NCBI GenBank assembly: GCA_015200345.1
Contig: CP054187.1
Location: 2,960,470-3,024,469 of the forward strand
DNA: 64,000 nt
Direction: 5' to 3'
From: Planctomycetia bacterium
Lineage (GTDB): Bacteria > Planctomycetota > Phycisphaerae > UBA1845 > UTPLA1
Shown here: piece after piece, positions 7,981 to 12,370 of the stretch
Position numbering within the stretch: the first letter of the stretch is position 1
Layout of the letters: each line of letters begins with the position of its first letter
The notes under the pieces: model-generated
What the model was told of the DNA's origin: nothing
Seen by the model: only the letters and a program-made list of their open reading frames with translations
The model's database searches: none
Translations under genes and position numbers: made by a program

Positions 7981-9435
7981 ATGACGATCCCGGCGAACCG
8001 ACCTGTCTCGAGGCGATGCACGCGCGCGATCATTGCCGCCTGCCTCGCCCTTCTCCTGCCGGCGCCGGTCGCTTGCATTCATCCGACCTCGCGGAAATAC
8101 GACATTCCCCCCGCGCCGAAATCGACTGCTTCGCAGCGAGCCTCCGAACCGCAGCCGTTCTGGTGGGGGGTATCAACCTCGCCGTATCAGATCGAGGGTC
8201 CGCCCCGTGCCGACGGCGGCACGACCATCTCGTTCAAGACGGACTGGGATCTGCTGCACGAGATGGGCAAACTCGACGCCGCGCGCGATCGGCGGATCGA
8301 CAGTTTTGAATGCTTCGAGCGGGATCTGGCGGCGCTGAAGTACCTCGGCGTGACGCACTATCGCTTTGGCATCGAATGGGCGCGCGTCGAGCCGACGCCC
8401 GGCGCATTCGACGAAGCGGCGATCGAGCGCTACGTCAGCATGGCTCGCCGCCTGCGCGAAGAAAATATAACGCCAATTGTCTGTTTTTGGCACTTCTCCC
8501 TGCCCCACTGGCTTTGCAATATGGTTGAAGACCCCGACGCGCACGGCTGGTTTCATCCGGACGCGCCGGCCGCCTGGGAGCGGTACGTCTCGCGCATGGC
8601 GAAAGCCCTCGCGCCGGACGTGGAACTGTTCGCGCCGCAGAACGAGCCGAACATTTACGCGCTGGCGGTCTCGATCGGAATCTTTCCGCCGGGTAAAAGC
8701 CTGGGCAAGCCCTATTACGAAAAGTTGACGGAGCGCGAGGTCCAGTTGTTCCTTCGCGCAGCCGAGATCATCCGCGCCGAGCGCCCGGGCGCGAAGATCA
8801 TCAGCGTGCAGAACATCATCCATTGGGAACGCGACGCGTTTGACCTCTTCGGCATCTGGTACGACATCGCCCGGTGGCACAATTACGCCCATCTGGATCG
8901 CGTCGCGTCGGCCGTTGATTACATCGGCTTCAACTATTATCAGCGCGAAGTCGCCAGCCCGCTGGCGCTGTGGGCGCAGTCGCTGCGAAAGGGCGAGCAC
9001 GTTTCCGATCTCGGCTGGATCATCGACCCGCGCGGGCTGGAAGAGGAGATCGTCGAGCTGGCCCGGCGCTACCAGAAACCGATGGTGATCATGGAAAATG
9101 GCATCGCCGACGCGGGAGATGAAAAACGCCAGTTGTATCTATTGCAGCACATCCAGGCCGTGCGCCGCGTGCGCGAAGCGGGCTACGACCTGCGCGGCTA
9201 CTTTCACTGGTCGCTCATGGACAACTACGAATGGACGCACGGCTACAGCCAGAAGTTCGGCCTCTTTGCGTTGGAACCGACCATGCCCGCCGCGCCCGGA
9301 GCAATCGCCGGCCCGTCAAAACTGGTCCCCAAGCCCTCGGCGAATCTCTATCGGTTTCTAATCAAAAATGCGCTTCACGATGTGCAAGCCAAGGCGTTTG
9401 AGGGAGAGCTTGAAAAAAGCAGAGTGGGCCGGTAA
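7981..9435 (+). CDS. GH1 family glycoside hydrolase, probable lipoprotein
   Basis: 484 residues, usual for GH1. The N-terminus is a signal peptide ending PAPVAC-I, a probable lipobox, so it is likely tethered outside the inner membrane. The family opening WGVSTSPYQIEG, the acid/base motif QNEP (usual form TxNEP, here with Gln for Thr-Leu context) and the nucleophile motif IMENG are all present. GH1 enzymes are retaining beta-glucosidases, galactosidases and relatives; specificity is not predictable here. The last seven codons lie inside the 3' end of the antisense-strand rnpB gene, so the two overlap by 19 bp. Confidence 0.88.
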   Translation: MTIPANRPVSRRCTRAIIAACLALLLPAPVACIHPTSRKYDIPPAPKSTASQRASEPQPFWWGVSTSPYQIEGPPRADGGTTISFKTDWDLLHEMGKLDAARDRRIDSFECFERDLAALKYLGVTHYRFGIEWARVEPTPGAFDEAAIERYVSMARRLREENITPIVCFWHFSLPHWLCNMVEDPDAHGWFHPDAPAAWERYVSRMAKALAPDVELFAPQNEPNIYALAVSIGIFPPGKSLGKPYYEKLTEREVQLFLRAAEIIRAERPGAKIISVQNIIHWERDAFDLFGIWYDIARWHNYAHLDRVASAVDYIGFNYYQREVASPLALWAQSLRKGEHVSDLGWIIDPRGLEEEIVELARRYQKPMVIMENGIADAGDEKRQLYLLQHIQAVRRVREAGYDLRGYFHWSLMDNYEWTHGYSQKFGLFALEPTMPAAPGAIAGPSKLVPKPSANLYRFLIKNALHDVQAKAFEGELEKSRVGR

Positions 9436-9897
9436 GCCGAATTCTGTCCCGCAGGATCGCTCCCGCGGTGGCGATCATTTCTCTGGGCCGACGATTGCTC
9501 GCCGGCTCAAGCGCCCTACCCGCGGCGTGGTGCGAGACGGGCCGCCTCGCGCCGCCGCGACGCCGATCAGCTTTCGCCGATCGCGCCCGCACTCGTCGAT
9601 CGAAATCGACAATCGCAGGCTTTCGTCGCTGCGGACTCGCCGCTTACATGGGCTTGCTGGCGGTGGGGTTTGCCGTGCCGCGACCGTCGCCGGCCGCGCG
9701 GTGCGCTCTTACCGCACCGTTTCACCCTTGCCTGTGATGCCGTCTCGAGAGCCGGCACCCATCGGCGGTCTCATCTCTGTGGCACTGTCCCTGGCGTCGC
9801 CGCCGGTGGCCGTTAGCCATCACCGCGCCCGGACCAGTTCGGACTTTCCTCCCGAAGCGCTCTCGCGCCCCGGGCGACCGCCTGGCCCACTCTGCTT
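9417..9897 (-). ncRNA. rnpB: RNase P RNA (bacterial type A)
   Basis: The minus strand carries the conserved core in order: GGAGGAAAGTCCG near the 5' end, CCACAGAGAT, GGTGAAACGGTGCGGTAAG, GGCACGGCAAACCCC, GGGTAGG and ACAGAATTCGGCTTA near the 3' end. The two ends form a perfect 14-bp P1 helix (9884-9897 with 9417-9430). The RNA 3' end runs straight into six U (9411-9416), so P1 plus the U-run may serve as an intrinsic terminator. Length is about 480 nt against about 377 for E. coli. Most of the excess lies between the GCAAG segment and GGGTAGG, the P15-P17 region. A TACAAT -10 element sits 6 nt before the 5' end. Confidence 0.93.
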
Positions 9898-9960: not shown

Positions 9961-10000
9961 ACCACGGGTGCAGATCGCGCATGCCACCGGCACCCGTGGT
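9961..10000. repeat. Perfect 11-bp inverted repeat between rnpB and the lipoprotein gene
   Basis: ACCACGGGTGC at 9961-9971 pairs perfectly with GCACCCGTGGT at 9990-10000 around an 18-nt loop. It lies just upstream of the promoter at 10015-10043 and in the upstream region of rnpB. No U-run follows on either strand, so an operator or cruciform is more likely than a terminator. Confidence 0.55.
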
Positions 10001-10014
10001 CGCATATTTTCCGC

Positions 10015-10043
10015 TTGACATCGCCATAGGGGGGGGGTATGCT
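10015..10043 (+). promoter_or_regulatory. Consensus promoter with a G9 tract in its spacer
   Basis: TTGACA (10015-10020) and TATGCT (10038-10043) are separated by exactly 17 nt, and the last nine spacer bases (10029-10037) are all G. The predicted start is near 10050 and the SD GGAGG (10077-10081) sits 8 nt before the ATG at 10090. Length changes in the G tract would alter the spacer and hence promoter strength. Confidence 0.7.
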
Positions 10044-10089
10044 ACACGAAATGGCTCTTTTGCTTTTTGCACCAATGGAGGCTTGAACT

Positions 10090-10785
10090 ATGTCACGGAT
10101 TAACTCGCTGATTGTTTCATGTATGATGTTGGTTGTGTTGACGGGATGCCCTGTCAACCCTTGTTTGAAGCCCGCTGGAACTACAAACTGTATTACTGCA
10201 TGTGCGGCAGCCGCGAATCCGCGTCGCTCCTGCAACTCGTGCTGTAACGCCAAACCACAAACACCGCTGGCTCGTCAACAATGCTTCGACGCCTGCAATA
10301 CAGCCTATGGCGGATTCGCAATCATAGCGAACCCGGTTGAAGAGGTCAGAGATGTGGAAGCAACTGAAGTAATCGTAGAAACTGAATCCGTGGATAATAG
10401 CTTGAGCGCATGCTCTTGTGAACGCATCGTGCCATGCGACACATCGATTACTCAACCGATTCTCATGGCTATTCCGGAATTCTGGCGAACCGTGACGATT
10501 GCAAATTTCATTTGTTATCTTTCCCCGTCGGAGCGATCCGAACTGCTCATGGACATTCAGAATTCGGAGAATTGGGTGTTTGGACGCACCCAAGCAGATT
10601 TTGACGCTCAAATGGCAATACTTGACGCGGCCGTGATTGAGATAATGGCGGCCAATGAAGTAGAAGGTAGCGCCCATTATACTTTCTATATGAACAACTT
10701 ACTTTATGGGCTATGGGGAATGCACGGGCCAGACTTGATCAGAGAGGTGCCGGAGCCTGTTCCAGCTCCTCCGGAAGCACAATGA
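10090..10785 (+). CDS. Cysteine-rich lipoprotein of unknown function
   Basis: 231 residues. The signal peptide ends in VLTGC, a textbook lipobox, preceded by a strong SD. The mature protein has twelve further cysteines, mostly in two clusters: the first 65 residues (including a Cys-x-x-Cys-Cys pattern) and a Cys-x-Cys...Cys group near residues 115-125. The C-terminus is Pro/Glu-rich (PEPVPAPPEAQ). I recognise no family. The gene is visibly lower in GC than its neighbours. It lies 46 bp upstream of a TlpA-like thioredoxin protein in the same direction, which fits a disulfide-related partnership (inference). Confidence 0.75.
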   Translation: MSRINSLIVSCMMLVVLTGCPVNPCLKPAGTTNCITACAAAANPRRSCNSCCNAKPQTPLARQQCFDACNTAYGGFAIIANPVEEVRDVEATEVIVETESVDNSLSACSCERIVPCDTSITQPILMAIPEFWRTVTIANFICYLSPSERSELLMDIQNSENWVFGRTQADFDAQMAILDAAVIEIMAANEVEGSAHYTFYMNNLLYGLWGMHGPDLIREVPEPVPAPPEAQ

Positions 10786-10831: not shown

Positions 10832-12370
10832 ATGAAGACTCGTCCGTGGATCGGGATCGCAGCATTTGCAGTGGCGGCAATGCTTGCAATAGCTGTTGCA
10901 GCATATTGTCTAGTGGATGCCGGCCCTGGCTCCGCCGGTTCAAAGCCTGCACAGGTACTCTGTCCACTTGATTCTGTTGAGTGGTTTAATACCGAGAGGC
11001 CCGTTTCATGGCAAACGCTTCGCGGCAGGCCGGTCCTGCTGGAAGTTTGGGCGACATGGTGTTCCGTCTGCCTCAAGCAAGTTCCAAAGCTCAACGCCCT
11101 GCAACGGAAATACGCTGACCGCGGGCTTGTCGTCATCGGCGTCACCGAGGAATCCGCTGAAAAGGCTCACGCTTACATCAGGCGTTATCAAATGGAGTAT
11201 GTCGTCTGTACAAACCAAAAATTAGTTGGCGTCAATGCCTTGCCAACAGTAATTCTTATTGATGGCAGTGGAAATGAGCTGTTGAGAGAAGTAGGAGAAA
11301 CATCGACTCGGCGTCTCGAAACAATATTGAGCCAAATGCCATTAATGAGTGTAGATAATCCGGTTCGACTTGGAGCGATGAGCGGATTTGTCTCAAACAG
11401 GCCTGCGTCTGCCAAGGGCTACGATCAAGCCGCCTTGAATATTGAGATCGATCACTTCATTACTCGAATTGAAGCAGGTCAAGCGGATGAGATTGAGAGG
11501 GACATCAAGCGTATTATGAGTTTCTACCAGGCAAATCTTCCGGTCGGTGGCTGGCAGGGCGATTCGGCATGTCGTCTCTTTCTTATGGGAGCGTTATTTG
11601 ATCTGTTGACACCCATGAAAGCACGCAACCTTAATGCGGGTATTTCGTTGCTAGGCGACGAATTACTGGATACGTTTGACTGGACCGAACCGGACTGGGA
11701 AGTTCGAGCCGAACGAGCGCGAAAAGTCGGCAAGGCTCTGCGTCCCGGGAATGCGCGAGCGATCAACGTATTGTCACAGGCCGAGCGTTCGGAAGCTCAT
11801 CCCTTGGTTCAATACGCTTTAATCGAATCCTTGTCGCAACTGGACAAGACCAGGCCACGAGTTATTCGACCGCCGTCAGAATGGGAAATCGCCTACAGAA
11901 AATATACAGACGAATCACTAAAATGGACCACCCGATGGTTCGGTGCAGCCGGGGAGTACAAGGCATTTGATGACTATGTTCGCGACATGGAAGCCCGGAT
12001 GACAACGGCCGACATGGAAATACTGTTGTCAAAGCTGATGTCTGATTATTCAATTCATTCGGGAATGTCGGAATTAGATTTGCTGGTTCGTTATTTTATT
12101 CTCGATCAACTCAGCACAATCCCATACAGCCGCACAGTGACCAAGAGCGACCGTTGCCGCATGCAAAAATGGTTGCTATCCGTTCTCAAGCATCACGAAC
12201 CTGATTGGCGCATTCGGCTCCATTTGCTACTCACGCTCGACCAATGGAAATATGATTGCCTTCCATTGCCTGAACTGATTTACGTGTTGGATGAACGAAT
12301 TCGTAGCGAAGACGTGAAATATGTGAAAGCCCATTTCGAATCCATACGAATGCAAGTCGCTTCAAAATAG
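10832..12370 (+). CDS. TlpA-like thioredoxin-fold protein with a long unknown C-terminal region
   Basis: 512 residues. A membrane segment or signal (about residues 8-28) is followed by a thioredoxin fold with WATWCSVC (Cys77 and Cys80), the conserved GVTEES strand and the cis-Pro segment VNALPTV. The fold ends near residue 170. The remaining 340 or so residues are mixed alpha-helical, with no motif I know. The redox domain should act outside the cytoplasm on disulfides. The gene shares low GC and probable transcription with the Cys-rich lipoprotein upstream, an obvious candidate substrate. It converges on the pseudouridine synthase gene with a 25-bp gap. Confidence 0.8.
   Translation: MKTRPWIGIAAFAVAAMLAIAVAAYCLVDAGPGSAGSKPAQVLCPLDSVEWFNTERPVSWQTLRGRPVLLEVWATWCSVCLKQVPKLNALQRKYADRGLVVIGVTEESAEKAHAYIRRYQMEYVVCTNQKLVGVNALPTVILIDGSGNELLREVGETSTRRLETILSQMPLMSVDNPVRLGAMSGFVSNRPASAKGYDQAALNIEIDHFITRIEAGQADEIERDIKRIMSFYQANLPVGGWQGDSACRLFLMGALFDLLTPMKARNLNAGISLLGDELLDTFDWTEPDWEVRAERARKVGKALRPGNARAINVLSQAERSEAHPLVQYALIESLSQLDKTRPRVIRPPSEWEIAYRKYTDESLKWTTRWFGAAGEYKAFDDYVRDMEARMTTADMEILLSKLMSDYSIHSGMSELDLLVRYFILDQLSTIPYSRTVTKSDRCRMQKWLLSVLKHHEPDWRIRLHLLLTLDQWKYDCLPLPELIYVLDERIRSEDVKYVKAHFESIRMQVASK

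Follow-up and report, generated by a model that had tools for sequence, protein, structure and literature searches.

The window analysed here, a 64-kb stretch of planctomycete DNA (64,000 nucleotides), raises the question of whether a run of nine Gs in the spacer of a promoter may serve as a genetic switch. The original prediction proposed phase variation of a surface lipoprotein, on the grounds that the -35 and -10 boxes lie at the ideal 17-nt spacing only through the G run. TTGACA, TATGCT and G9 are read directly in the window, and this arithmetic is correct. The features concerned are as follows.

10015-10020, plus strand: -35 box TTGACA (direct sequence reading and consensus scan)
10021-10037, plus strand: 17-nt spacer, TCGCCATA and then G9 (direct reading)
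10029-10037, plus strand: G9 tract, abutting the -10 box (direct reading and G-run search)
10038-10043, plus strand: -10 box TATGCT (direct reading and consensus scan)
10077-10081, plus strand: RBS GGAGG, with the ATG 8 nt downstream (direct reading)
10090-10785, plus strand: gene for a Cys-rich lipoprotein of 231 aa with the lipobox VLTGC (translation; family search)
10832-12370, plus strand: gene for an exported thioredoxin-like protein of 512 aa, Redoxin/AhpC-TSA plus HEAT_2 (Pfam)

The consensus scan recovered the same TTGACA/TATGCT promoter, with 10 of 12 positions matching and a 17-nt spacer. The full promoter motif, with up to three mismatches allowed, has a single match in the window and none in any of 100 dinucleotide shuffles, and the tract at 10029-10037 is the sole G run longer than seven within the 64 kb. 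To judge from its sequence, this is a genuine housekeeping-sigma-type promoter of the lipoprotein-thioredoxin operon. It carries an uninterrupted G9 between the two boxes, and a homopolymer of at least about seven in this position marks promoter-spacer loci of the porA, fim and opc kind. Two other roles of the tract were considered and rejected. A single run of nine Gs is unable to fold into an intramolecular three-tetrad quadruplex, and a MerR-type activated promoter has a 19-20 nt spacer with a dyad operator, whereas the window spacer is 17 nt long and its G run is free of dyads. Upstream, the class A RNase P RNA gene (window 9417-9893, minus strand) is divergent from the lipoprotein promoter, and an imperfect inverted repeat lies between the two at about 9962-10000.

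The description of the gene products as a Cys-rich lipoprotein and a thioredoxin partner was accurate, as the first has the lipobox VLTGC and 14 Cys per 231 aa, and the second matches Redoxin/AhpC-TSA and HEAT_2 in Pfam. The lipobox by itself predicts export of the lipoprotein, which has no family above the cut-off in Pfam or NCBIfam. Its predicted structure, from three sequences, is helical with a mean pLDDT of 58, too weak for interpretation. A search for tandem arrays at the lipoprotein gene gave none. Its only strong paralogue within the genome (45% identity) is likewise followed by a thioredoxin-like gene, and its promoter reads TTGACT-N9-G7-TACCCT, with a spacing of 16. In the sister species a divergent homologue, 24-25% identical to the window protein, occupies the position of this paralogue (L027/L025); this gene, the closest one there to the lipoprotein pair, has an 18-nt spacer behind TTGACT, and the spacer lacks a G tract. 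The neighbouring pseudouridine-synthase gene has its closest named relatives in Planctomycetota/Phycisphaerae MAGs, at 72-74% identity, which points to a planctomycete as the source.

The G9 promoter does not stand alone. The source genome, a single contig of 3.88 Mb, contains 13 distinct tracts of nine or more Gs (grouped from 22 overlapping matches), and such runs are scarce in it, since composition alone predicts about 155. In four of the 13, TTGAC immediately precedes the tract at spacer distance, where about 0.2 are expected (p ~3e-5, computed for 14 tracts), and a fifth is flanked by TTGATA and TACAAT. The pattern TTGACN{0,14}HG7 occurs 10 times in this genome vs 2 for the reversed control, and TTGACN{2,14}G7TANNNT occurs 50 times vs 8 in 160 relatives. 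A search of the order's 114 genomes found TTGACAN{0,20}G7TANNNT 24 times and the reversed pattern once, and the architecture is present in 21 of these genomes, the source genome included; in 392 genomes of the phylum the same search gave 29 vs 2. Some of the G-run matches (e.g., L030, L032, L034) apparently lie in coding sequence and were retained in the counts. The per-genome density of these promoters is about threefold higher in the order than in the phylum sample. The excess over reversed controls in the genome, the order and the phylum therefore identifies poly-G-spacer promoters as a real class, to which the window promoter belongs and which is widespread in planctomycetes. Chance origin of the motif is ruled out by the order-wide and phylum-wide contrasts together with the window shuffles. 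A general promoter style of the genome was also rejected, as only 2 of 70 TTGACA-N15-19-TANNNT sites have a G run of at least four abutting the -10 box. Some matches outside the order are not of this class; in G354/G331, for example, the boxes are 22-24 nt apart and the gene downstream is one that we take to be trpB.

Long G runs were also noted in other settings. A multi-copy promoter-like element, "AAAAAATCTC TTGACATC G8-15 ... TAGGCT", occurs at four loci (L153, L154, L156 and L159; G027, G058), with three of the four copies near contig ends. Several promoters of one genus (L145-L150; G069, G071) have TTTTTTCC immediately 5' of TTGACA and, 3' of it, extended runs of 11 to 16 Gs (G11 to G16), and in this genus a good -10 box is not always present after the G run.

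The class sits preferentially on exported, often Cys-rich proteins. A fixed rule called the downstream gene for 19 of the 24 order-wide G-run promoters and for 13 of 20 ordinary promoters of the source genome. Exported-like products lie behind 18 of the 19 vs 8 of the 13 (p ~0.03), and products with at least 4% Cys behind 11 vs 2 (p ~0.03); the contrast is rough, as the controls all come from the source genome and, of the two that are Cys-rich, one belongs to the family. Within the source genome, most of the other G-run promoters are located upstream of small exported Cys-rich proteins. Five such small proteins had no match in Pfam or NCBIfam, and an HMM built from five Cys-rich members recovered no further members in 101 genomes. 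A probe blind to promoters used the regions upstream of genes for the exported partner protein of the Cys-rich genes. It covered 60 of 71 qualifying regions among the matches listed, three lying at contig starts and the last eight being omitted, with the four model-building proteins left uncounted. TTGAC followed by G7 or more was present in 8 of the 60. The antisense strand gave 1 of 60 (p 0.03), and 20 control regions gave none, a comparison that alone is not significant (p 0.19). The G tract is therefore enriched, yet far from universal, in the partner family.

Among the 24 order-wide G-run promoters the spacer lengths are 14 nt (3), 15 (2), 16 (2), 17 (4), 18 (1), 19 (8), 20 (3) and 22 (1), so that 19 nt is the commonest (8 of 24) and there is no spread centred on 17. 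Ordinary TTGACA...TANNNT sites of the source genome have spacers of 15 nt (3), 16 (15), 17 (25), 18 (22) and 19 (5); these counts take in the two G-run sites. Among sites with 15-19 nt, a spacing of 16-18 is found in 7 of 17 G-run vs 61 of 68 ordinary promoters (p 6e-5); here the two G-run sites are left out of the ordinary set, which includes chance sites, and the compared sets come from different genomes.

Close homologous promoters present a mixed picture, with lengths that differ in some of them. Two tandem copies in the source genome (G000:C1:3515749 and 3518042) have spacers of 12 nt (G6) and 18 nt (G11); over the 110 nt beyond the tract they align without gaps at 96% identity, roughly as far as the signal peptide extends, and then diverge abruptly. 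In two congeneric species the homologous promoters carry G13, G13 and G15, with spacings of 20, 20 and 22. Three other pairs have kept their spacing: two orthologous promoters of the source and sister species remain at 19/19 and 16/16 despite substitutions, the positions of the A interruptions having shifted in the former, and a paralogous pair in G087 remains at 19/19 with a different order of G and A. Such constancy suggests that spacer length is under selection there. A-interrupted runs are found in both members of two of the unchanged pairs and in one member of the third, while in the pairs with changed length the runs are uninterrupted, which is in line with the expectation for slippage, though the pairs are few (n=5). 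The tract lengths are as assembled and may include homopolymer error.

A second kind of repeat was found at a further locus of the source genome. Locus L329 (G000:C1:1302200-1304700, minus strand) encodes another Cys-rich exported relative, and a perfect 9.5-copy TCTCACCG array at its positions 1918-1993 directly follows the ATG. Tandem repeats right after the ATG are the classical hallmark of translational contingency loci. The array is in frame as found, the other two frames terminate within 8 codons, and a change in copy number would shift the frame because the 8-nt unit is no whole number of codons. The promoter of this gene is ordinary, with a 17-nt spacer, and the array is the only one of its kind among the 329 loci examined.

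Taken together, phase variation is the best-supported reading of the G-run promoters and, for the G9 tract of the window itself, probably the right one. The proposal gained from the excess of the class, its exported Cys-rich products, the G7 of the paralogue, the differences of G11/G6 and G13/G13/G15, the out-of-register spacers and the octanucleotide repeat; the three pairs of constant spacing and the predominance of 19 nt count against it. Slipped-strand mispairing would add Gs to the window tract or remove them, and each gain or loss would change the distance between the -35 and -10 boxes, the 17 nt of the window being the in-register state. Cells within one clone would then differ in the strength with which they express the lipoprotein operon. 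We infer slippage at the G9 tract within the population, its effect on transcription, the exposure of the lipoprotein at the cell surface and any advantage to the cells. For fast slippage, a tract of nine Gs is near the lower limit of length. Against slippage we also count the 52 of 60 examined partner-family members without a TTGAC+G7 promoter and the homologue of the sister species without a G tract.

Beyond this locus, we put forward a broader scheme tentatively, with rather less than even confidence. Poly-G-spacer promoters, with occasional coding-repeat variants, may form a hitherto unrecognised planctomycete contingency system which stochastically sets the expression of a fast-diverging exported Cys-rich repertoire and of its partner genes, thioredoxin-like or otherwise exported. 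The tandem pair at G000:C1:3515749/3518042 suggests how this repertoire may grow: a cassette with the -35 box at one end and the signal peptide at the other would be copied in front of new mature domains. The near-identity of the two operons of this pair (L328) begins at the -35 box and ends with the signal peptide, beyond which they encode different Cys-rich domains; the Cys-rich gene of the second copy looks frameshifted.

The alternative that survives best, although we regard it as unlikely, is a fixed promoter element with no switch. In this case a lineage-specific G-rich spacer of about 19 nt would be recognised either by a regulator of its own or by RNA polymerase, which would respond to the altered DNA shape of the G tract, and the spacer would co-regulate exported Cys-rich proteins. 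The predominance of 19 nt, the orthologous pair that stays at 19/19 while its A interruption has moved, the G087 paralogues at 19/19 and the link of the class to one kind of product all fit such an element. Nevertheless, the window promoter stands at 17 and its paralogue at 16, the order-wide spacers range from 14 to 22, the tandem copies have 12 and 18, and the G run offers no dyad for a MerR-type activator. Neutral drift appears a good deal less probable. It supposes that the spacer tolerates any sequence, that G runs born by slippage persist as nearly harmless and that nothing is switched in a regulated or selected way; members of the same gene family and the sister species' homologue that lack the tract are consistent with it. 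However, drift would predict neither the 24 vs 1 contrast with the reversed pattern nor the link to exported Cys-rich products, and G runs of nine or more are evidently not freely tolerated, being about tenfold rarer genome-wide than composition predicts. An assembly artefact, with a homopolymer error hiding another spacer length, is highly improbable, as 21 of the order's 114 genomes, the source genome among them, show the architecture, even though the sequencing method of this single-contig genome is unstated and some of its family genes look frameshifted.

Promoter switching by slippage is known chiefly from host-associated bacteria, e.g., Neisseria, Bordetella and Helicobacter. If phase variation is indeed at work here, contingency loci would extend to this phylum through the recurring, function-linked poly-G-spacer promoters of uncultured planctomycetes. 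It would also suggest that exported Cys-rich proteins selected for cell-to-cell diversity make up a large, still unannotated set, with phages, predators, competitors and surfaces as the obvious candidate selective agents. The class is listed fully enough for culture-free testing on existing metagenome reads. A literature search for planctomycete phase variation with homopolymeric promoter spacers found no paper in the library searched, and one for planctomycetes and phase variation found none on poly-G promoters among the papers listed, judged by title. A search for planctomycete homopolymer or promoter slippage returned work on coding frameshifts only, as far as the abstracts tell, and one for promoters of planctomycete Cys-rich secreted lipoproteins returned chlamydial work only.

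The closest parallels come from Neisseria and Bordetella. The porA promoter of Neisseria meningitidis has a poly-G tract between its -35 and -10 boxes, the same geometry as in the window. The octanucleotide array of L329 has the form of coding-region tandem-repeat contingency loci in general; at the window gene the search detected no such array. In the N. meningitidis opc promoter, the length of a poly-C tract sets the promoter strength of an outer-membrane protein, according to PMC3447861. For both meningococcal promoters the length variation and its effect have been measured, whereas for the window tract we infer both, and the loci are not homologous. The Bordetella pertussis genes fim2, fim3 and fimX have a poly-C stretch in their promoters, and fimX with C8 has a transcript level 3.8-fold lower than with C7, as reported in PMC1891110. 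These promoters are activator-dependent, with a fim box and the C-stretch, and the model given there concerns the distance from the activator site to the -10 box (PMC1891110). The window shares with fim an extended G/C homopolymer that overlaps an exported protein's promoter (a surface protein in fim); unlike in fim, the window has a full TTGACA box flanking the tract, the tract abuts the -10 box, and the phylum is another and the products unrelated. Within-species variation in length and length-dependent transcription define promoters of the porA, fim and opc kind, and by analogy the window promoter would resemble them in its working.
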